Source: Corynebacterium canis
GTDB taxonomy: Bacteria > Actinomycetota > Actinomycetes > Mycobacteriales > Mycobacteriaceae
Assembly (NCBI RefSeq): GCF_030408595.1
Contig: NZ_CP047080.1
Coordinates: forward strand, 2,135,685-2,199,684
Length of the DNA stretch: 64,000 bases
Direction of reading: 5' to 3'
Under the pieces are notes generated by a model. That model searched no databases and was not told where the DNA came from. It saw only the letters and a list, made by a program, of their open reading frames with translations. How positions within the stretch are numbered: the first letter of the stretch is position 1; each line of letters begins with the position of its first letter. The translations under genes were made by a program, and so were the position numbers. Below, one piece after another: positions 52,582-63,181 of the stretch.

Positions 52582-54603
52582 ATGGCGTTCTCCGTTGAGA
52601 TGCCCGAACTGGGCGAATCCGTCACCGAGGGTACAATCACCCGCTGGCTGAAGCAGGTCGGTGACACCGTCGCCGCCGACGAGCCGTTGCTGGAGGTCTC
52701 CACAGACAAGGTCGACACTGAGATTCCGTCCCCCGCCGCAGGTGTTCTTTTGAAAATCTTGGCGGAAGAAGACGACACCGTTGACGTTGGCTCAGTCATC
52801 GCCGAAATCGGCGAAGAAGGCGAAGCACCAGCCGACACCACCCCCGCTGCCCCCGCACCGGCACCCGCAGCTGAGGCGGCCCCCGCCCCGGCCGCTGCGG
52901 CCCCCGCTGGCGATGCCACCGATATTGAGATGCCGGAGCTGGGTGAATCCGTCACCGAGGGCACCATCACCCGGTGGCTCAAAGCCGTGGGCGATACCGT
53001 CGAGGTGGATGAGCCGCTGCTGGAGGTCTCCACGGACAAGGTGGACACCGAGGTTCCCTCCCCGGTGGCCGGCACCCTCGTGGAAATCCTTGCCGAGGAA
53101 GACGACACCGTCGATGTCGGCGCCGTGATCGCACGCGTCGGTTCCGGCGTCGCCGCCGCCCCCGCGGAATCGGCCCCCAAGCCCGAACCGAAGGTAGAGG
53201 CCGCCCCGAAGGTGGAAGCCACCCCCGAGGTAGCCGCCAAAGTACAGGCCCCGGCGGCCGATGCCACCGATATTGAGATGCCGGAGCTTGGTGAATCCGT
53301 CACCGAGGGCACCATCACCCGGTGGCTCAAAGCCGTGGGCGATACCGTCGAGGTGGATGAGCCGCTACTGGAGGTCTCCACGGACAAGGTGGACACCGAG
53401 GTTCCCTCCCCGGTGGCCGGCACCCTCGTGGAAATCCTTGCCGAGGAAGACGACACCGTAGATGTCGGCGCCGTGATCGCACGCGTCGGTTCCGGCGTCG
53501 CCGCCGCCCCCGCGGAACCCGCCCCCAAGCCCGAACCGAAGGCAGAGGCAGCCCCGAAGGTGGAAGCACCCGCTCCCAAGCCGGAGCCCAAGCCTGAACC
53601 CAAGCCGGAGCCGAAGCCCGCTGCTCCCGAGCCCACCCCGGCACCCGCGGCGGCGAAAAAGAATGCGGAAAACGTCCCGTACGTGACCCCGCTGGTGCGC
53701 AAGCTCGCCGATAAGCACGGCATCGATCTGCGTACCATCACCGGCACCGGTGTTGGTGGGCGCATCCGCAAGCAGGACGTTTTGGCCGCCGCGAACCAAG
53801 GTGCGGCTGCGGAAGAAGAGGCCGCACCGGCGGCCCCGGTGTCCGCCGCCTCCACCAAGGGTGTGGATCCGGCGAAGGCCGCGCTCCGCGGTACCACGCA
53901 GCGCGTGAACCGCATCCGCGAGATCACGGCGAAGAAGACCCTGGAGTCCCTGCATTCGTCAGCTCAGCTGACGCAGCTGCATGAGGTGGATATGACCAAG
54001 GTTGCGGACCTGCGCAAGGCTTCCAAGGCCGCGTTCCAGGCCAAGTACGGCGTGAACCTGACCTACCTACCGTTCTTTGCCAAGGCGATCGTGGAGGCGC
54101 TGGTTTCCCACCCGAACGTGAATGCGTCCTACAATGCAGAGACCAAGGAAATGACCTACCACCCGCAGGTCAACCTCGGTATCGCCGTGGACACCCCGGC
54201 GGGCCTGCTCTCCCCGGTGATCCACAACGCTCAGGATTTGACGCTGCCACAGCTGGCGCAGGCCATCGTGGACATTGCGGAACGCGCGCGCAGCAATAAG
54301 CTGAAGCCCGCCGACCTCATGGGCGGCACCTTCACCATCACGAACATTGGTTCGGAGGGCGCGTTGTCCGATACCCCGATCTTGGTGCCGCCGCAGGCCG
54401 CCATGATCGGCACCGGCGCGATTGTCAAGCGCCCCGTGGTGATCACGGAGGACGGCGTTGACGCCATCGCCGTGCGCCAGATGGTGTTCCTGCCGATGAC
54501 CTACGACCACCAGGTGATCGACGGCGCCGATGCCGGCCGTTTCCTCACCACCGTGCGCGACCGTCTGGAGACCGCAAACTTCGCGGGCGACCTCGACCTG
54601 TAG
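52582..54603 (+). CDS. aceF: Dihydrolipoamide acyltransferase E2 with three lipoyl domains
   Basis: E2 transfers acyl groups to CoA in the 2-oxo-acid dehydrogenase complex; in corynebacteria this protein serves the pyruvate/2-oxoglutarate supercomplex (also called SucB). The 673-residue protein has three lipoyl domains, each with the lipoyl lysine in STDKVDTE (first Lys43), linked by Ala/Pro/Glu stretches; an E3-binding domain ([16 protein letters not shown]); and a catalytic core with the HxxxDG motif in [20 protein letters not shown] precedes the ATG. Lipoyl domains 2 and 3 are nearly identical in DNA. LipB and LipA downstream make its cofactor. Confidence 0.95.
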
Positions 54604-54718: not shown

Positions 54719-55435
54719 ATGAGTCCCATTATGACCGCACCCCGCCCCCCGTTTACCGCACCTGACCAGCCAATCCGCGATCTGAGCGTGCCCTTGGATG
54801 TCCAGTGGCTGGGCCGCGTGGATTACCTGCAAACCTGGGAGCGGCAGGCGACACTCGCGGCCCAGCGCGCCCGAGACGAGATCGGGGACCTCCTGCTCTT
54901 CCTCGAGCACCCGAACACATATACGGCGGGCAAGCGGACGCAGCCGGAGGATCGCCCCACCAATGGGTTACCGTGCGTGGACGTGGACCGCGGCGGCCGC
55001 ATCACGTGGCACGGGCCCGGCCAGCTGGTGTGCTACCCCATTATCAAGCTCGCCGAACCCGTGGACGTGGTGGATTACGTGCGCCGCGTTGAGGAGGCGA
55101 TTATTCACGTCCTGCGCACCACCGGCCTCCCTCAGGCCGGGCGTATCGACGGTCGCTCGGGTGTTTGGTTGCCGCAACCCGACAGGAAGATAGCGGCGCT
55201 AGGCATCCGCGTGACCCGCGGTGTGACCATGCACGGGCTGGCCCTCAATTGCAATAACACGCTGGAGTTTTACCAACACATCGTCCCGTGCGGCATCGAC
55301 GACGCCGGGGTGACCACGTTGAGCGCCGAGCTAGGACGCGACGTCGATACGCAACAGCTAATCGAACCGCTTGCCGACGCCCTCGCCGCGGCGTTTTCCG
55401 GCGAACTCACCGTCGCCGACCACTCGCTCGCCTAG
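54719..55435 (+). CDS. lipB: Octanoyl-ACP:protein octanoyltransferase LipB
   Basis: LipB moves octanoate from acyl carrier protein to lipoyl domains, here those of AceF. The 238-residue product has [27 protein letters not shown], the lysine in [21 protein letters not shown] and the catalytic cysteine in [15 protein letters not shown]. An ATG four codons later is an alternative start. In related genomes lipA follows directly; here it is 6.7 kb away, beyond the accessory block. Confidence 0.95.
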
Positions 55436-55938
55436 CTTGTCGCGGCCGTATTCGACCATGCGTGCAGACGGCCGCCGTGGTATAACAGCGGGTCGATGCC
55501 CTCGCGGAAATCGCAATCGTGGACCGCGATGGTGAGGATAATGTGGTCGCCGCCCCGATAACGGCTGGTCACCTCGCCCCGAAACCAGGCGGCGGCACCT
55601 GCGATAAAGGGGATATCGGCGCGGCGGTCGATCTCCACGTCGGCGAAACGGTCGAGCCCGTGGCGGGCGAAACGCACGGCAAGATCCGTCTGCCCCTCCG
55701 CCAGCACGGACACGCCTATCGGCGAGCCCACCTGCAAATATGTGTGCGAACGGGAGTTCTGGTCGATGCTGACCAGCACCATCGGCGGCTGCAAGGACAA
55801 CGATGCGAACGCGCTTACGGTAAGCCCGATATCCTCGCCGTCCTTGTTGGTGGTTACCACCGTCACCCCGGACGGGAAATTCGCCACCGTTTGCCGATAA
55901 TGCGTGCTAGTCGGAAACCGCACCGCACGCTCACTCAT
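55432..55938 (-). CDS. Flavin reductase family protein (FMN:NAD(P)H)
   Basis: The 168-residue protein has the split-barrel flavin reductase fold: [39 protein letters not shown] near the N-terminus, [13 protein letters not shown] in the middle and a conserved HDCDF/HGGRL end. Such enzymes supply reduced FMN to a partner monooxygenase. The ATG at 55938 overlaps the acyl-CoA-dehydrogenase-like gene by 8 bases, so the two are translationally coupled and probably work as a two-component system. The 3' end overlaps lipB by 4 bases, tail to tail. Confidence 0.9.
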
Positions 55939-56983
55939 CGCCCCGCGCACGGGCTAACTCCCAACGCAATTGAGATTCCGACGGCGATTGCACCGGAATA
56001 AACGCCGCCTCGCGGAAACGCCGGGAAGCGGCCGAACTCTTGGCGTATCCGGCGCCGCCCGCCACGCGCACCTCGATGCCCGCCGCATCCACCGCCGCCG
56101 AGGCTGCCCCGAGGCGCAACTCCAGCAGATCAACCGCATTTGCGTTCGGTAGCCGCAGGATGCTTTCCTCGTGCTGTTGCGCCAGGTTTCGGATCCGTTC
56201 CGCCAGCCGCTCCACGTCTTCCGCGAAGGTCGCATTCACACCCGATAGGCGGGTCGAGGCCGCCGCAATCGCCGCCTCGGCCACGCCGAGGCACTCCGCC
56301 ACCTGGAGCAACACGAAGGTCGGGCGGACCTCGGTAATAAACGGTTCGAAATCGTGCGAAATGATTTGCGATTCCGGGATAAATACGGCATTGAACTCCA
56401 CGCCTGCGGACGCCGTGGAGTTCAGGCCAAGCAGGCCGAACGGGTTGCCAAAATCCACGCCTTCCGCGGTGCCCTCGACAAAGAACAAAAAACGTTCGCC
56501 GTGATCGGTGCGCGCGGCGCTGACCACCACGGCGTCGTGATAGAGGTTCGAAGCCCAGTTCAATTTGCCCGAGATGCGGTAGCCACCTTGGACCTCGGCG
56601 GCGTGCAGCTCAACCTGGCCGCAACCAGCGAACTCCTTAAAGGCCGCCGCCATGCCGGTGACCCCGGGGCGCTCGCCGCGCAGCAATTGGCCGAGTACCT
56701 GTTCGGTATCCGCGCGGGCCGCGCGGCGCAGGTATTCCAGCGTCATGCGGTGCGCCCACACGGTAAAGCCAACGGAAAGATCGCACCGGGACAACTCCCG
56801 GATCAGCCGGGCGGCGGAAAGCAGGTCCCCGCCCAGGCCCGCTTCACCCAGCAATGGCAGGATATAGCGGGCGTCGAGCTCCCCGCGATCAACCGCAGCT
56901 GCGTTCGCAGAGACCTTTTGCAGCAGATCCGGGTGCGTGCCCAAGGGTTCGAGTTCGATATGGGAAATGGTTGCGGTGGTCAT
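55931..56983 (-). CDS. Acyl-CoA dehydrogenase-fold flavoprotein, possible two-component monooxygenase
   Basis: The 350-residue protein belongs to the acyl-CoA dehydrogenase superfamily (SGKLNWASNLYHDAVVVSA, NSTASAGVEFNAVFIPES, VRVAGGAGYAKSSAASRRFREAAF). It is shorter than typical dehydrogenases at the N-terminus. With the coupled flavin reductase it fits the DszC/SfnB-like class of FMN-dependent monooxygenases that act on organosulfur compounds; an ordinary acyl-CoA dehydrogenase is less likely without other fatty-acid genes nearby. The substrate is unknown. It follows the OsmC gene directly. Confidence 0.82.
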   Translation of the reverse strand: MTTATISHIELEPLGTHPDLLQKVSANAAAVDRGELDARYILPLLGEAGLGGDLLSAARLIRELSRCDLSVGFTVWAHRMTLEYLRRAARADTEQVLGQLLRGERPGVTGMAAAFKEFAGCGQVELHAAEVQGGYRISGKLNWASNLYHDAVVVSAARTDHGERFLFFVEGTAEGVDFGNPFGLLGLNSTASAGVEFNAVFIPESQIISHDFEPFITEVRPTFVLLQVAECLGVAEAAIAAASTRLSGVNATFAEDVERLAERIRNLAQQHEESILRLPNANAVDLLELRLGAASAAVDAAGIEVRVAGGAGYAKSSAASRRFREAAFIPVQSPSESQLRWELARARGDE

Positions 56984-56984
56984 A

Positions 56985-57548
56985 TCAGCCTTCCTCTGGT
57001 GACACGAGCTCCGAGGTCAACTTCGCCGGGCGCGTGTAGGTGTTTACTACTGGGGACCACCGGATTGCATCCTTGTGGATCTGGTCTAGGGTCGCTCGGT
57101 CTGCGTCGCCTTCCAGTGCGATCTTTACGCGGACGTCGGAAACGCCGGGGCGCTTGTCCGCATTGAGGTCGCCGACGCCCCAGGTCGGGGAAATATCAAT
57201 ATCGCCTTCGATATCAATTTCGATCTTGGTGAGGGTCACGCCGCGGTGCGTGGCGATCGCTTGGATGCCCACCGAAATGCAGGCAGCCAGCGCGGCCTGC
57301 GCCACCTCGGTAGGGTTCGGCGCTGAATCATCGCCCAGCAGCGCCGGCGGTTCGGATACGAGGACGGGCTCAAGGTTTCGAATCTGGGTGACGTTGCGGA
57401 ACAGGCCGTCCGCTTCCGTATGGGTGCGCACGGTCCTCTTTGCACCGGACGGGTTTTCGATGTTCTTTTCGGCGAGGGCGCGAAGGGCTGCGGGATCGAT
57501 AGGTTGCAGCGCTTCGCCGGGGCGGTGATTAGGAGTGAGATTGCTCAT
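56985..57548 (-). CDS. OsmC-family protein
   Basis: The 187-residue product (ATG 57548, MSNLTPNHRPGEAL) carries the OsmC fold with the typical helix NPTEVAQAALAACISVGIQAIATHRGVTL and the C-terminal region VVNTYTRPAKL. OsmC/Ohr proteins reduce organic hydroperoxides through a cysteine pair: one cysteine is in the AACISVG helix, but I do not see the second usual one, so peroxidase activity is uncertain. It is the first gene of the three-gene minus-strand unit and shares a 265-base divergent promoter region with the ABC importer. Confidence 0.82.
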   Translation of the reverse strand: MSNLTPNHRPGEALQPIDPAALRALAEKNIENPSGAKRTVRTHTEADGLFRNVTQIRNLEPVLVSEPPALLGDDSAPNPTEVAQAALAACISVGIQAIATHRGVTLTKIEIDIEGDIDISPTWGVGDLNADKRPGVSDVRVKIALEGDADRATLDQIHKDAIRWSPVVNTYTRPAKLTSELVSPEEG

Positions 57549-57758
57549 CGCAGTCGTGCTCTTTTCCGTTGTGAACGATACATAGCTGAAGTTGAGGAAC
57601 GACCCTAACACATTTCCGCGCGCCTGTGAACCACTTTGTCTATCAATTTGTTAGGGCAACCTTGCCTATAGCGAGAAATATTCACGCTGTTACGTGGCTT
57701 TTTCATTGGGGGCTAGACATCAGACCCGTGCAACGGTTACTCTCAACGGCCAAGCCGC

Positions 57759-57774
57759 AAGACCAAGCGGTCTA
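57759..57774. promoter_or_regulatory. McbR-like sulfur-regulator box
   Basis: AAGAC-CAAGCG-GTCTA matches the corynebacterial McbR consensus TAGAC-N6-GTCTA with one mismatch. It lies between the OsmC unit and the ABC importer, 40 bases before the importer start. McbR represses sulfur-uptake and methionine genes, so the box suggests sulfur control of one or both units. A related half-site TAGAC occurs about 45 bases upstream. Confidence 0.6.
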
Positions 57775-57813
57775 TCTGCTACAGACCATCTTTTCCCCTG
57801 CTAGGTTGCCGCT

Positions 57814-58968
57814 ATGCCTCCACACGCTCACACGATCACCCGCCGCGCGATACTCGCGCGCACCGCGCTCGCCGCCGCAACCCTGCCCGTGGCGAGCATG
57901 GCAACCTCCTGCGCCGTCCCCACTGCCAAATCGACACAATCCGCGAATCAGCTCACCATCGGCTACGTCCCCATCGCGTGCGCCACTCCCCTGATTTTGG
58001 CGCACGCCAATAACCTTTTTGAGCAGCGCGGATTGACCGTCAAACTTAAGAAATTCGCCGGTTGGGCGGATCTTTGGAGCGCCTACTCCACCGGCGAATT
58101 GGACGTGGCCCACATGCTCTCCCCCATGCCCATCGCCATGAACGCCGGCGCTACGAATGGCCAACGGCCCACCGAGATCGCCTTTACCCAAAATACGAAC
58201 GGACAGGCGATCACGCTGGCGAGCAAGTACGTGGACAAGGTTTCCGATGCCGCCGATTTCCGCGGCAAAGTCATCGGCATTCCATTCGAATTCTCCGTCC
58301 ATGCGCTGCTCTTCCGCGACTACCTCACCGCCGGCGGCGTGGACCCCGTCGCCGACCTGGAACTGCGCCTGTTGCGGCCCTCCGATATGATCGCCCAATT
58401 GCAGGTCGGCGGCATCGACGGCTTTGTCGGCCCAGAGCCGTTTAATCAGCGCGCGATCGCTTCCGGTGCCGGACGTATTTTCAAACTCACCAAGGAACTG
58501 TGGCCCGGGCACCCGTGCTGCAGCGTCGCGATGTCCAAGGATTGGCGCTCGACGCATTCAACCCAGGCGGAACTTATTACGGAGGCGCTGGCCGAGGCGT
58601 CCAAGATTGCGAACGACCCCGCAAAACAACACGAAGTTGCGAAAACTTTGGGGCGCGAGGAATACCTCAATCAGCCCGCCAAACTATTCCTGCCCACCTT
58701 TAGCGGGGAATACGAAAATTGGCACGGGCAGGCCGTGGTGGATCACGGCCGCATGTCCTTTGGAGACGCCACCGATCCCGCCGCGATTACCTGGATGGCC
58801 ACCCAAATCGCGCGGTGGAAGCTCGGCGGCGATGCGCTCATCATGGACGACCCGACGCTGATCAAATTTGCGGACTCCGTGCTGCCCGCAGATATCGGGC
58901 ACGGCAGCGAGAGCATCACCGTCAACGGCCGCGAATTCAACCCGAACATACCGACGATCGGCTACTAG
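57814..58968 (+). CDS. ABC importer substrate-binding protein, nitrate/sulfonate/taurine type
   Basis: The 384-residue protein has a twin-arginine start (ITRRAILARTALAAATLP, Arg10-Arg11) and a likely lipobox with Cys33, then an NMT1/SsuA-like binding fold: LTIGYVPIACATPLILAHANNLFEQRGLTVKL and GKVIGIPFEFSVHALLFRDYL. It would capture a small anionic substrate outside the membrane. By family the candidates are sulfonates, nitrate, bicarbonate or pyrimidine precursors; the McbR-like box and the two-component oxygenase favour an organosulfur compound. It heads an operon with permease and ATPase. Confidence 0.88.
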   Translation: MPPHAHTITRRAILARTALAAATLPVASMATSCAVPTAKSTQSANQLTIGYVPIACATPLILAHANNLFEQRGLTVKLKKFAGWADLWSAYSTGELDVAHMLSPMPIAMNAGATNGQRPTEIAFTQNTNGQAITLASKYVDKVSDAADFRGKVIGIPFEFSVHALLFRDYLTAGGVDPVADLELRLLRPSDMIAQLQVGGIDGFVGPEPFNQRAIASGAGRIFKLTKELWPGHPCCSVAMSKDWRSTHSTQAELITEALAEASKIANDPAKQHEVAKTLGREEYLNQPAKLFLPTFSGEYENWHGQAVVDHGRMSFGDATDPAAITWMATQIARWKLGGDALIMDDPTLIKFADSVLPADIGHGSESITVNGREFNPNIPTIGY

Positions 58969-58979
58969 GAACCACAAAC

Positions 58980-59765
58980 ATGCAAACGGAACAAACACCC
59001 GCTATCCGCGCCATTGGGATCGGCACCGTCCTTTTCCTCGCCGCCGTCGGCCTCTGGCAATGCGCCGCCGTGTTCGGTTGGCTGAGCGACCTCGCCCCCA
59101 CCCCAACCCGAACGGCTAGTCGAGCGATAGAAATCCTGTCCAATCCGTTTTACCGGGATGGACCGAGCAGCGTGGGCATTTTCTGGCACCTGGTCACCTC
59201 GCTGCGGCGCGTGCTTACCGGCTTTCTCATCGCCACAGCAATCGCCGTCCCATTAGGCTTTGTGCTGGGCCGCAGCGCGGCATTACGCTGGGCTGTCGAT
59301 CCATTGCTGCAGGTATTGCGGCCGGTCTCCCCGCTGGCTTGGCTCCCTCTTGGCCTCGCTCTGCTGAGCGATTCCGAACGCACCGCCATCTTCGTGATCG
59401 TGCTTTCGGCGCTGTGGCCAACCCTGATCAACACTATCGACGCCGTGCGCAACGTCAATCCCACGTACCTTAACCTCGCCGCCACCCTAGGCACCTCGCA
59501 TTGGGCGCAGATTGGCTATGTGTGGCTCCCAGCCGCTCTCCCCGGAATCATTACCGGCCTGCGGGTTTCGCTTTCCACCTCGTGGTTGGTGATTATCGCC
59601 GCCGAGATGCTCGTGGGCGGCCAAGGCATCGGCTTCTTTGTGTGGAACCAATGGAACCGGCTCGACATTGACGCCATCGTGGTGTCCATCCTCCTGATCG
59701 GAGCCACCGGGCTCATCCTCGACCATCTGATCGCCGCGATTCAGAAAGTTGTTCGCTATGACTAA
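58980..59765 (+). CDS. ABC importer permease, SsuC/NrtB type
   Basis: The 261-residue protein has six membrane helices and the importer loop NLAATLGTSHWAQIGYVWLPAALPGIITGLR, the EAA motif region that contacts the ATPase. The ATG at 58980 follows TAGGAACC; the frame running up into the binding-protein gene is rejected. It lies 11 bases after that gene and overlaps the ATPase gene by 8 bases. Confidence 0.9.
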   Translation: MQTEQTPAIRAIGIGTVLFLAAVGLWQCAAVFGWLSDLAPTPTRTASRAIEILSNPFYRDGPSSVGIFWHLVTSLRRVLTGFLIATAIAVPLGFVLGRSAALRWAVDPLLQVLRPVSPLAWLPLGLALLSDSERTAIFVIVLSALWPTLINTIDAVRNVNPTYLNLAATLGTSHWAQIGYVWLPAALPGIITGLRVSLSTSWLVIIAAEMLVGGQGIGFFVWNQWNRLDIDAIVVSILLIGATGLILDHLIAAIQKVVRYD

Positions 59766-60531
59766 TAGCAGCCATGTAGAACTGCGCAATATCACCAAAT
59801 CCTATGGCGCCGCCGAGGTTATCGCTCCAACGAGCGTGCATATCGACGAAGGACAGTTCGTGTCCATCCTCGGCCCCTCCGGCTGTGGCAAATCAACAAT
59901 CCTTTCGATGATTGCGGGGCTCGCGTTCCCCAGCACCGGCGAGGTATTCGCCGCCGGGCACGCGGTCACCGCACCCGGACCGGACCGGGGCATGGTCTTC
60001 CAACACCACGCGCTGCTGCCCTGGATGACCGCCAAGGGCAATATCGAATTCGGCCTGAAGTCCGCCCGCCCGCAACTTTCCCGCGCCGAGCGCTCCGAAA
60101 TCGCAGATCAGTTCCTGCAACAGGTTGGCCTTGCGCACGCCGCCTCCCGCCGCCCCGCTCGCCTGTCCGGCGGCATGCAACAACGGGTCGGCCTCGCACG
60201 TGCGTTCGCGGTCGATCCGGAGATCTTGCTTCTCGATGAACCGTTCGGAGCCCTCGATGCCCTCACGCGCCGCGAATTGCAATTGCAGCTCCGCAACGTG
60301 TGGGAGGCGAATCGCCGCACGGTCATCATGGTCACGCACGACGTCGACGAGGCCATCCTGCTTTCGGATCGCATCCTGGTGATGTCCCACGGCCCGCGAT
60401 CCACCATCATCGCCGATATCGAGGTGGCCACCCGTTCGAACCACAACGAACTCCGCGAACACCTGCTCGAACTGCTGGAACATTCCCCCGAGCAAGTACA
60501 CGCGACCCTCCAGTACAATACTGTCCCATGA
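59758..60531 (+). CDS. ABC importer ATPase, SsuB/NrtD type
   Basis: The 257-residue protein has Walker A GPSGCGKST, the Q-loop MVFQHHALLPWMT, the signature LSGGMQQRVGLARAF, Walker B LLLDEPFGALDA and the switch His in MVTHDVDEA. It energises the importer encoded just upstream. The ATG at 59758 overlaps the permease stop by 8 bases, and its own stop overlaps the sortase-like gene by 4. Confidence 0.93.
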   Translation: MTNSSHVELRNITKSYGAAEVIAPTSVHIDEGQFVSILGPSGCGKSTILSMIAGLAFPSTGEVFAAGHAVTAPGPDRGMVFQHHALLPWMTAKGNIEFGLKSARPQLSRAERSEIADQFLQQVGLAHAASRRPARLSGGMQQRVGLARAFAVDPEILLLDEPFGALDALTRRELQLQLRNVWEANRRTVIMVTHDVDEAILLSDRILVMSHGPRSTIIADIEVATRSNHNELREHLLELLEHSPEQVHATLQYNTVP

Positions 60532-61253
60532 GGAAATCGGTGGCCGTGCCCATCGTGGCTGTACTGGTCACGCTAGCCTGCGTCTGCGCGGGCGCATTTC
60601 TAGTGCTCACCCGCAATACGGCCACCGAAGAGCCGGAACCATTAGCGGCTTCCACGCCGGTAACCACCTCCACGACGCCACCGCCACCCCCGCCGCCGCC
60701 GAACGTGAATGCGGGCCCGGCCCCGATGGACGTCGGCACGTTCAGTATCGAAGGCAGCGTGCCGCTTGTCGGCGCAACGTACGCCTCGATGCCCTACGTC
60801 CTCCCCCTCGACCCGCCCGGGCCGCAAACAACCATGGTGCGCTGGGTTGAGGGCTGGGGGCAACCACCGTCAAAAGCCCAGGATGGCACCGTATATATCC
60901 TCGGCCATGCCTGGGCTCAGCAGCAACTGGTATTCAACCCTATTTCCGAACGTGTGAGCGCCGATGTGCTTCTCGACGCCCCGCCCGAACAAGTGCCCGC
61001 AGTAAGCGGCGGCACCGTCCCCCGCTATTCCTCTTCGATCCTGAATGGATCGAAGCTACGCACCACCGATGAACACGGTGCGGCGCGCGAATGGGTGGTC
61101 GACGGCGCCTGGCTCGTGGGGAAACAAGATGCCATTGAGGATGCGGAATTGGTGGACACCACCATTCCCGGCCGAATCATTCTGATCGCCTGCGCGGTGA
61201 AGGACAACCAAGACCTCGACTACAACGTCATCGTCTCCGGACACCTTGTTTAA
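60528..61253 (+). CDS. Sortase-like protein with atypical active site
   Basis: The 241-residue protein has a signal anchor (about residues 5-27), a Thr/Pro-rich linker with eight successive prolines, and a sortase-type domain with YILGHAWAQQQ (His127) and IILIACAVK (Cys222). In active sortases an Arg follows in the last strand; here the region reads DLDYNVIVSGHLV, with Asn where Arg is expected, so activity is doubtful. The ATG overlaps the ATPase gene (ATGA), but TACAAT 8 bases upstream could also give a leaderless transcript. No LPXTG substrate is visible in the window. Confidence 0.75.
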   Translation: MRKSVAVPIVAVLVTLACVCAGAFLVLTRNTATEEPEPLAASTPVTTSTTPPPPPPPPNVNAGPAPMDVGTFSIEGSVPLVGATYASMPYVLPLDPPGPQTTMVRWVEGWGQPPSKAQDGTVYILGHAWAQQQLVFNPISERVSADVLLDAPPEQVPAVSGGTVPRYSSSILNGSKLRTTDEHGAAREWVVDGAWLVGKQDAIEDAELVDTTIPGRIILIACAVKDNQDLDYNVIVSGHLV

Positions 61254-61262
61254 CCTGGGAAT

Positions 61263-61922
61263 CTATTCCCAATCGTCCTGGCGGAACCGGCGGCCACGTC
61301 GACCGGGAGGCCCGAATCGCCGCGGACGGCCCATGTACCGCGGCGGCGGAAAACCAGGGCCATAGTCCTCATCGTCCTCGCCGATGTAATCCTCGAGGTA
61401 GGTGATGATCCGATCCGTCACTGCGAAAAACTGTTCGCGCTCCTTGTCGGAGAGCAACGTCAGCGGATCCGCCGAATTGCTGCCCTTGGCGTTTTCCTCC
61501 GCCTGCTTGAGGCCTTCCTCCGTGATGCTGACCACGCGGGCGCGAGCGTCGTTCGGGTCTACCTCGCGGGTAACCAAACCGGCGCTTTCGAGCTTGGCAA
61601 GAATCTCACCGAGCGACTGCGGGCGCACACCGAGTACGTACGCCAGTTCGCTTTGCGCAATGGGGCTGCGCATGGCCAGCATCGCCAGCACGCGGCCCTG
61701 TCCTTCGAACACGCGATGGACTCGATGGCCGAAGCCAAGCTGCCGACGTGCTTGGTCGAGATCTTTCTTAGTGGCGCGCTTGATCAGCGTCCAGATCTCG
61801 AAAATGCGGCCTTCGAAAGTGTCATCCGAAAACGGCAAGCCATCGCGCGGCGGCGGGGGGCCCACAGGCCCATCAAATCCGTCTTCCGGAGGCATTCCGG
61901 GATCTTGCGGATAACCAAACAT
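61263..61922 (-). CDS. MarR-family transcriptional regulator
   Basis: The 219-residue protein has a Gly/Pro-rich N-terminus, a MarR winged-helix domain (AQSELAYVLGVRPQSLGEILAKLESAGLVTREVDPNDARARVVSIT) and a disordered basic tail rich in Gly, Arg and Pro. The ATG at 61922 is chosen because the upstream sequence holds the operator array and promoter; the frame continuing to 62108 would run through them. It converges on the sortase-like gene and probably represses its own promoter through four GGTACC sites. Confidence 0.9.
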   Translation of the reverse strand: MFGYPQDPGMPPEDGFDGPVGPPPPRDGLPFSDDTFEGRIFEIWTLIKRATKKDLDQARRQLGFGHRVHRVFEGQGRVLAMLAMRSPIAQSELAYVLGVRPQSLGEILAKLESAGLVTREVDPNDARARVVSITEEGLKQAEENAKGSNSADPLTLLSDKEREQFFAVTDRIITYLEDYIGEDDEDYGPGFPPPRYMGRPRRFGPPGRRGRRFRQDDWE

Positions 61923-61941: not shown

Positions 61942-62010
61942 GGTACCTCCTTGCCCTTCAAGAAGGTACCTTCAGTATTGCAAAGGTACCTTGGCTTGTC
62001 AACAGGTACC
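61942..62010. promoter_or_regulatory. Phased GGTACC operator array and promoter of the MarR gene
   Basis: GGTACC occurs at 61942, 61965, 61985 and 62005; the middle pair are full AAGGTACCTT palindromes, and the last three are exactly 20 bases apart, two DNA turns. On the minus strand TTGACA (between the last two sites) and TGCAATACT, 17 bases later, look like the -35 and extended -10. The arrangement is typical of strong autorepression. Confidence 0.8.
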
Positions 62011-62137: not shown

Positions 62138-63181
62138 GTGACTATCGCCCCCAACGGCCGCAAACTGCTTCGCATTGAAGCGCGAAACGCAGAAACGCCA
62201 ATCGAAAGCAAGCCTCGTTGGATCCGCACCACCGCCAAGACCGGTCCCGAATTTAAGGACATGAAACGGCGTGTGTCCGGCGCTTCCCTGCACACGGTGT
62301 GCCAGGAAGCGGGCTGCCCAAACTTGCACGAATGTTGGGAATCGCGCGAAGCCACCTTCCTAATTGGGGGTTCGCAATGCTCGCGCCGCTGCGATTTTTG
62401 CCAGATCTCTTCCGGCCGCCCGGAACCATTGGACCGCGATGAACCCCGCCGCGTAGCGGAATCCATCCAAGAAATGGGCCTGAATTACGCGACGATCACG
62501 GGCGTCACGCGCGACGACCTCCCGGACGAGGGCGCCTGGCTCTACGCCGAGGTGGTTCGCCAAATTCACAAGCTCAACCCCCACACGGGTGTAGAAAACC
62601 TGGTTCCGGATTTCTCCGGCAAGCCCGATCTGCTCGCGGAGGTGTTCGCCGCCCGCCCCGAGGTTTTCGCACACAACATCGAAACCGTGCCGCGGATTTT
62701 CAAGCGCATCCGCCCCGCCTTCCGCTACGAACGTTCACTCGAAGTGATCCGCCAGGCCCGCGACTACGGCTTGGTCACCAAATCGAACTTAATTTTGGGC
62801 ATGGGTGAAACCTTCGACGAGATCACGCAATCGATGCGCGACCTGAAAGACGCAGGCTGTGACATCCTCACCATTACCCAATACCTGCGCCCCGGCCCGA
62901 CCTATCACCCGATCGAACGCTGGGTGAAGCCGGAAGAGTTCGTGGAACACTCCAATGCGGCGAAGGAAATGGGCTTTAGCGGCGTCATGTCCGGTCCGCT
63001 CGTTCGTTCGTCCTACCGGGCGGGCCGCCTGTACGCGCAGACCATTGCCGCCCGCGGCGAGCAGCTGCCGGAGAATCTGCGCCACCTCGCCGAGACCACG
63101 GAGGGTTCCACCGCGCAAGAGGCATCGTCGCTGTTGGCTAAGTACGGCGCTTCCCAAGACACCCCGGTAGTCAGCCGTTAG
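62138..63181 (+). CDS. lipA: Lipoyl synthase LipA
   Basis: LipA is the radical-SAM enzyme that inserts two sulfur atoms into octanoyl-lipoyl domains. From the GTG at 62138 it has 347 residues with the auxiliary cluster ligands Cys55, Cys60 and Cys66 ([12 protein letters not shown]) and the radical-SAM triad Cys81, Cys85 and Cys88 (CSRRCDFC). TAGGGT 7 bases before the GTG fits a leaderless start. It follows the MarR gene divergently, separated from lipB by the accessory block. Confidence 0.95.

Follow-up and report, generated by a model that had tools for sequence, protein, structure and literature searches.

The interval between lipB and lipA of Corynebacterium canis, contained in a 64,000-nt stretch of its genome (contig NZ_CP047080.1, positions 2,135,685 to 2,199,684; called the window hereafter), carries two divergent transcription units whose products very probably serve, judging from sequence comparisons, a sulfur-regulated uptake and oxidation of a small compound. 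One unit encodes an OsmC-like protein, a flavoprotein of the acyl-CoA dehydrogenase (ACAD) fold, referred to below as the ACAD protein, and a flavin reductase, and the other encodes the substrate-binding protein (SBP), the permease and the ATPase of an ABC importer, followed by a sortase-like protein. The two operons may together constitute a single sulfur-scavenging module, with thiocyanate as the favoured substrate, an explanation to which, as a whole, we assign a probability of roughly 0.4. An earlier note, made from the DNA sequence, had read the block as a sulfur-responsive module that imports and oxidises an organosulfur compound and that arrived by insertion. The sulfur response gained support, whereas an organosulfur substrate became less likely and a private insertion was contradicted. 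All genes named in that note (flavin reductase, ACAD protein and OsmC on one strand, importer and sortase-like gene on the other, then a MarR gene) were found between lipB and lipA, in the same order and on the same strands (Table 1).

Both units start from a common region (57549-57813). Neighbouring genes of the leftward unit are separated by a 1-bp gap or overlap by 8 bp, and in the rightward unit an 11-bp gap after the SBP gene is followed by overlaps. The ACAD gene is present in 20 of 121 Corynebacterium genomes, one of which (G070) gave a partial match. After duplicate genomes had been merged, and with G070 not fetched, 25 distinct Corynebacterium-type loci besides the window were available for comparison. 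OsmC adjoins the ACAD gene in all 25, and the module lies in the serA–leuB interval in 11 of them.

Predicted sulfur control

Alignment of the divergent promoter regions showed a conserved sequence, AAGAC-CAAGCG-GTCTA, located 39 bp before the SBP start. It agrees at 9 of 10 bases with the McbR consensus TAGAC-N6-GTCTA, as given in the portion consulted of PMC2723105. The core AGAC-N6-GTCT was found within 300 bp upstream of the SBP and/or OsmC gene in 23 of 26 loci, that is, the 25 loci and the window (L115 was included despite a doubtful label, and the upstream regions start at the ends of tblastn matches, with start codons unproven). With spacers of 3-5 or 7-9 nt instead of six the motif was found in 0 or 1 of the 26 loci, and the best of 255 other palindromic half-sites reached 4 of 26; the exact box was missing from L036, L151 and L155. 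The claim that the block is sulfur-responsive is thus supported, and we infer from the conserved box that a McbR-type regulator may repress both operons.

In seven of 20 regions retrieved from the C. canis genome, the same motif is followed by metK, metY, hom, metB, ahcY, a nucleosidase gene or a sulfite/nitrite-reductase-like gene; six of these genes reach an NCBIfam cut-off and the sulfite/nitrite-reductase-like one does not. In two more regions the motif is followed by a ROK-like regulator gene (our own reading, without NCBIfam support) and by a DctA-type symporter gene, and in the remaining 11 it falls within or close to other genes. Genome-wide, the McbR pattern with 0-1 mismatch was not over-represented (35 matches, as compared with 98 for a reversed-pattern control), and therefore the argument rests on the position and conservation of the box and not on its number. 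Of the 35 matches, two lie in the window and 21 in the 20 regions, while 12 with a mismatch in the half-site were left out by eye; six of the retrieved matches likewise have a mismatch inside the half-site. A scan for sigma-70 promoters gave 2 sites in 7.7 kb (2.1 expected), neither of them in the region shared by the divergent operons.

The importer

Compared with profiles, the SBP matched best NrtC (E-value 1.5e-62) and NrtA (9e-49), followed by TauA (3e-17) and SsuA (8e-8). Its predicted structure (mean predicted local distance difference test score, pLDDT, 88.6) has the same fold as the NrtA/CmpA class and matches it over the full length, the nearest solved structures being NrtA, CmpA and the NrtC/CmpC domain. 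Among NCBIfam models the SsuA family scored best for the SBP, although below its cut-off: the protein falls short of both models for SsuA/TauA sulfonate-binding proteins, TIGR01728 (76.9 against 163.5 bits) and TIGR01729 (39.5 against 304 bits). The best NCBIfam model for the permease was ntrB, at 193.4 bits against a cut-off of 209.

Residue conservation was examined in alignments of 82 OsmC, 29 flavin reductase and 23 SBP sequences, from which identical sequences and those with internal stops had been dropped (a separate alignment, A3, comprises 22 SBPs). Trp84, His163 and the pair Cys235-Cys236 are invariant in all 23 SBPs. In NrtA, nitrate is bound by Trp102, His196 and Lys269, according to the part seen of PMC13204499. 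By hand count through an alignment with CmpC, Trp84 and His163 correspond to the first two of these ligands, and the invariant Cys236 replaces Lys269. The conserved histidine and the final residue of the pocket are 73 positions apart in both CmpC (149 to 222) and NrtA (196 to 269; the NrtA sequence itself was not aligned), which places Cys236 at the position of Lys269. Because a cysteine stands where NrtA has this nitrate ligand, the SBP ligand is probably a small anion other than nitrate. Thus, the system resembles the NrtABC/CmpABCD importers in that its permease and ATPase match nitrate-transporter models best and its SBP is nearest to NrtA/CmpA, but it differs from them by Cys236, by NCBIfam scores below cut-off and by the sulfur-type box.

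The ACAD protein, flavin reductase and OsmC

No Pfam match was obtained for the ACAD protein. Its best NCBIfam match was the SfnB model TIGR04022, at 53.4 bits against a cut-off of 430.9, and the same model matched all 33 members of the subfamily with similarly low scores (best E-value 4.8e-15). The predicted structure (pLDDT 94.6) has the acyl-CoA dehydrogenase fold, with isovaleryl- and short-chain dehydrogenases as nearest neighbours, and is also close to ColB1, which oxidises a carrier-bound cysteine. The dehydrogenases carry their catalytic glutamate at one of two sites, the C-terminal YEG motif or the position of the isovaleryl type. In an alignment of 33 ACAD proteins hand-picked from the loci (A2; L108 was dropped, as its stretch contains a stop), Ser (32 sequences) or Ala (one) stands in place of the YEG glutamate, as compared with Asp in 9/9 SfnB and Ala in 9/9 HsaA sequences. 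The isovaleryl-type position coincides with an alignment gap and provides a weaker test; of the 11 dehydrogenase rows, three have a gap and one a Gly at the glutamate column, partly owing to an early end of the matched stretch. In a maximum-likelihood tree the 33 ACAD proteins formed one clade (support 100/100), apart from SfnB, HsaA and the dehydrogenases. The tree included 9 SfnB and 3 SfnB-like rows and neither DszC nor MsuC; midpoint rooting placed the ACAD clade beside the dehydrogenases, on a very long stem (2.41) that makes this placing unsure.

These results do not group the ACAD protein with the glutamate-bearing β-oxidation dehydrogenases, and with Ser or Ala at the YEG position it was not assigned to them. 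Because this glutamate has been lost and the clade is separate from the dehydrogenases, the protein probably works more like an oxygenase, or another non-dehydrogenase flavoprotein, than like a β-oxidation enzyme, without proven membership in any monooxygenase family. It shares with the two-component flavin monooxygenases of the DszC, HsaA and MsuC kind the ACAD fold devoid of the catalytic glutamate. A flavin reductase gene, which may encode a partner as in those enzymes, adjoins the ACAD gene in the window but lies within 2.5 kb of it in only 25 of the 80 loci described below; among the reductase's relatives of solved structure are those that serve the monooxygenases of p-hydroxyphenylacetate, styrene and phenol. 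With about 350 residues, the ACAD protein forms a clade separate from both SfnB and HsaA, and its score is far below the SfnB cut-off, so that membership in SfnB was rejected.

In OsmC, Cys90 is the only cysteine of the window protein and the sole invariant cysteine in the 82 sequences; many other rows have extra cysteines, found in 70-71% of the sequences at three columns that correspond to residues 27, 46 and 141 of the window protein. An invariant serine (Ser165) occupies the place of the second cysteine of Ohr/OsmC, as positioned by eye. Thiol peroxidases of the Ohr/OsmC kind possess two catalytic cysteines and follow a two-cysteine peroxidase cycle. With Cys90 alone, the window protein could not go through this cycle and was not assigned to these peroxidases; a role as sulfur carrier or thiol trap is possible.

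Two other readings bear on these proteins. The first is that a small organosulfur acid (a sulfonate, a sulfinate or a taurine-like compound) is imported and that a reduced-flavin (FMNH2) monooxygenase like DszC, SfnB or MsuC frees its sulfur. The McbR-type box, the flavin reductase gene next to that of the ACAD protein and the SfnB matches to 33 of 33 members all agree with it. So does the SsuA family as best NCBIfam model of the SBP, which at the same time speaks against thiocyanate, as does NrtT of Xanthomonas, an Nrt-named protein that binds alkanesulfonates, its pocket being unlike that of NrtA according to its authors (PMC5623697, in the part available). Nevertheless, the SBP is clearly closer to NrtA/CmpA than to SsuA/TauA in profile and fold, the ACAD protein lies outside the SfnB and HsaA clades, and the cyanase and transporter partners described below would be left unexplained, which makes an organosulfur acid an unlikely substrate.

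According to the second reading, the ACAD protein dehydrogenates or desaturates a small thiol attached to a carrier, with OsmC and the reductase as redox helpers, in a response to oxidative sulfur stress (e.g. by hypothiocyanite or persulfide) and not in nutrition. This would fit a fold nearest to true dehydrogenases and ColB1, and also the mycobacterial loci, where OsmC, a sigma factor and universal stress proteins are encoded nearby. It conflicts with the absence of the catalytic glutamate in all 33 ACAD rows and with a box that also marks assimilation genes in the C. canis genome, and it makes the linked importer hard to explain; we consider it improbable, more so than either an organosulfur acid or the N–S compounds discussed below.

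Genomic partners and the candidate substrate

A scan of named genomes returned 231 ACAD relatives, and the counts that follow refer to the best 80 loci, mostly from mycobacteria and not independent of each other, and to homologues detectable with the queries used. OsmC was found near the ACAD gene in 77 loci and a sigma factor of the extracytoplasmic function (ECF) type in 59 (both within 1.5 kb), cyanase in 34 (distance up to 1 kb; 32 of these loci are Mycobacterium-named) and flavin reductase within 2.5 kb in 25. A formate/nitrite transporter (FNT) channel (within 3 kb) occurred in 49 loci and the ABC importer (SBP within 9 kb) in 14, never both, with neither in 17. Pfam searches on representatives confirmed cyanase, FNT, sigma-70 regions, rhodanese/metallo-beta-lactamase and universal stress protein domains. 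In L064:8846-14456 and the majority of the remaining cyanase loci the order is OsmC–cyanase–ACAD–ECF sigma factor–(flavin reductase)–FNT–universal stress proteins, and the literature searched yielded no function for the OsmC–cyanase–ACAD–sigma–FNT cluster. Cyanase also lies inside the ACAD cluster in Rhodococcus and Amycolatopsis; at the Rhodococcus locus L061, a gene for a rhodanese/metallo-beta-lactamase protein comes next to it. At L151:7392-10009 (genome G122) importer, OsmC, ACAD and cyanase genes occur together, with a short helix-turn-helix-like protein encoded between the ACAD and cyanase genes.

Among corynebacteria the ACAD gene was present in 7 of 9 cyanase-bearing genomes, as compared with 20 of 121 overall (p = 3.6e-5), and in a sample of the order cyanase occurred in 7 of 20 ACAD genomes versus 21 of 180 (p = 0.011). 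Among the common anions, thiocyanate is the one that contains sulfur and yields cyanate upon oxidation at the sulfur atom. Since a sulfur-type box, a transporter for small anions (NrtA class or FNT) and a cyanase partner all converge on it, thiocyanate is tentatively favoured as substrate, with rather less than an even chance, and an organosulfur compound becomes less likely in view of the NrtA/CmpA-like SBP and the cyanase and FNT partners. The box and the cyanase association could also be reconciled with another N–S compound (an isothiocyanate, thiourea, dithiocarbamate or cyanide-derived adduct) whose oxidation leaves cyanate or urea, and in G023 the module indeed lies beside a urease operon. 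Yet the urease neighbour was seen in that one genome only, and an NrtA-class SBP and FNT fit small anions and not neutral molecules, so that such a compound appears quite unlikely, more so than an organosulfur acid.

With thiocyanate as substrate, the module could work as follows. Under sulfur shortage, a McbR-type repressor would leave the box at 57759-57774 and both operons would be transcribed; the NrtA-class importer would then take up a small monovalent anion, for which thiocyanate is the likeliest candidate. The flavin reductase would supply reduced flavin to the ACAD protein, which, lacking the dehydrogenase base, would oxygenate the sulfur atom. Sulfur would be released as sulfite, or as sulfane sulfur on the OsmC cysteine, leaving cyanate, which cyanase, where present (within the cluster at many mycobacterial loci, at a different site in some corynebacteria), would convert to ammonia and CO2.

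Several observations weigh against thiocyanate or limit its scope. Cyanase was found neither in the C. canis genome nor in a further 12 of the 20 Corynebacterium genomes with the ACAD gene (13 in all), which is the main weakness, and in the order sample it was likewise absent from 13 of the 20 genomes with this gene; speculatively, little cyanate would be formed if sulfur alone is wanted, and it could leave the cell or hydrolyse. The Fisher tests given above ignore the relatedness of the genomes. The three pointers are seldom united in one genome: ACAD and cyanase genes co-occur in seven Corynebacterium genomes, of which only G085 and G122 have a linked importer, and the G122 locus is among the three that lack an exact box. 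Neither is the module uniform, as the importer was seen near the ACAD gene, within the fetched stretch, in 15 of the 25 Corynebacterium-type loci, and the flavin reductase in 17, being missing in 8. The box occurs in just 1 of 66 loci outside the Corynebacterium-type set, so that the prediction of sulfur control is for that set and does not include the cyanase-linked mycobacterial clusters. Furthermore, the proteins listed as similar in fold to the ACAD protein are dehydrogenases, and its profile match is better to short-chain dehydrogenases (7e-21) than to DszC (3e-7). Finally, no paper linking these genes to thiocyanate use was found in the open-licence literature searched.

Known systems offer partial parallels. 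The enzyme of Thioalkalivibrio is a copper thiocyanate dehydrogenase that serves energy metabolism, unlike the flavin protein of the window, which would be under sulfur-assimilation control. SsuD1 of Corynebacterium glutamicum is of the SsuD kind and does not have the ACAD fold. Thioalkalivibrio breaks thiocyanate down by the cyanate route (PMC5744179, as far as the text consulted goes), and a cyanate intermediate is likewise what we propose here. The ssu/seu system of C. glutamicum is similar in combining sulfur-regulated uptake and a flavin-dependent oxygenase under McbR control: as described in the section seen of PMC2580772, it is controlled by McbR/SsuR and acts on sulfonates and sulfonate esters, SsuD1 being an FMNH2-dependent aliphatic sulphonate monooxygenase. 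It differs in these substrates, and that section mentions no cyanase or OsmC partner.

The lipB–lipA interval

That lipB and lipA are normally neighbours, as the earlier note had stated, holds across the genus: the distance from the lipB to the lipA match is 13-322 bp (median 106) in 118 of 121 Corynebacterium genomes, and exceeds 600 bp only in G000 (6705), G139 (13706) and G023 (5076). Two matches of one gene were merged for G130, G072 and G136. The module together with the sortase-like gene also occupies this interval in G139 and in locus L039 of a metagenome-assembled genome. TetR, FtsX-type permease and ABC ATPase genes are found there in G139 and G023, with MMPL additionally in G139. At L158:10718-17216 and L159:2207-5888, from two related genomes, the lipB–lipA interval holds TetR, FtsX permease and ABC ATPase genes, and in L158 also MMPL and MarR. 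The module of G023 is situated some 12 kb past lipA, adjoining urease. As the contents of the interval vary and the module also occurs elsewhere, we regard the interval as a local insertion hotspot in which the module is a passenger. A private insertion of the block was rejected, since the module is present at other sites in other genomes. Foreign origin was also rejected on composition, the GC content being 0.60-0.65 in the block and 0.61-0.68 in its flanks.

The variable interval, with its TetR–FtsX–ABC genes in G139 and G023 and MMPL in G139, might suggest that unrelated accessory genes have gathered at a hotspot by chance. This is already contradicted by the finding of the same OsmC–ACAD and importer genes together elsewhere, in many genomes and with the same box, and we regard a chance assembly as extremely improbable.

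The marR gene points towards the sortase-like gene and away from lipA. A MarR-like gene is kept beside lipA also in G023, whose lipB–lipA interval holds no module. The palindrome AAGGTACCTT has no other occurrence in the genome beyond the marR–lipA intergenic region, where the GGTACC sites overlap a sequence that resembles a promoter for marR by its strand (62002-61974). MarR was thus rejected as regulator of the module, being probably linked to lipA and to itself; the GGTACC array is likely an autoregulatory operator and might also affect lipA. The sortase-like protein gave no Pfam match even at an E-value of 1, and its orthologue at L158:4960-5670 matched PF04203 below cut-off (6e-5; 23.2 bits against 26.6). 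Among the loci compared, its gene was matched only in the lipA–lipB copies L039 and L040/L158, in line with the importer there. The acyltransferase encoded upstream of lipB apparently has three lipoyl-domain repeats, judged by eye.

Table 1. Genes and sites in and around the lipB–lipA interval of the C. canis window
Feature	Position	Strand	Match or remark
sucB-type acyltransferase	52582-54603		upstream of lipB
lipB	54719-55435	+	
Flavin reductase (HpaC/StyB type), presumably providing reduced flavin	55432-55938	-	PF01613, 8.3e-37
ACAD-fold flavoprotein, presumed S-oxygenase	55931-56983	-	TIGR04022, 1.9e-14, below cut-off; Ser333 at catalytic Glu position
OsmC-like protein	56985-57548	-	PF02566, 3.9e-18; single cysteine, Cys90
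Predicted McbR-type operator, AAGAC-N6-GTCTA	57759-57774		9/10 consensus bases
NrtA/CmpA-class SBP	57814-58968	+	PF13379; invariant Trp84, His163, Cys235-Cys236
ABC permease, NrtB/SsuC/TauC type	58980-59765	+	PF00528; ntrB, 3.4e-57
ABC ATPase, NrtC/D type	59758-60531	+	PF00005; ntrCD, 7.1e-77, below cut-off
Sortase-like protein, local add-on	60528-61253	+	no Pfam match; overlaps ATPase stop
MarR-family regulator	61263-61922	-	PF01047
Four GGTACC sites	61942-62010 (61942, 61965, 61985, 62005)		two are exact AAGGTACCTT palindromes
lipA	62138-63181	+	

Implications

Relatives of the ACAD protein occur in species that inhabit people and animals, and in others, with Corynebacterium matruchotii, C. 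propinquum, C. bovis, C. mastitidis, C. halotolerans and C. pseudodiphtheriticum among those named. The ACAD protein of L115, a locus titled C. halotolerans, is only 44% identical to that of the window, as against 64% for protein P0059, which bears the name C. halotolerans; L115 may be mislabelled or contaminated. Those members of the subfamily for which a name is given are called just acyl-CoA dehydrogenase or hypothetical protein.

Saliva and airway fluid are rich in thiocyanate, which feeds the peroxidase-hypothiocyanite defence. As a still more tentative proposition, host-dwelling corynebacteria and mycobacteria may possess an actinobacterial pathway based on a flavin-dependent thiocyanate oxygenase, used for sulfur (and nitrogen), in which a sulfur-regulated importer of the NrtA class would take up thiocyanate, the ACAD protein would act as S-oxygenase and the one-cysteine OsmC would carry the sulfur, with cyanase as the exit where present. 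If this were true, it would represent a new bacterial way of using thiocyanate, which is plentiful in saliva and mucus, and would give a function to the ACAD subfamily as well as to the conserved OsmC–cyanase–ACAD–sigma–FNT cluster of mycobacteria. Removal of thiocyanate would then mean sulfur for commensals, and might lower the substrate available to the host for making its oxidant.

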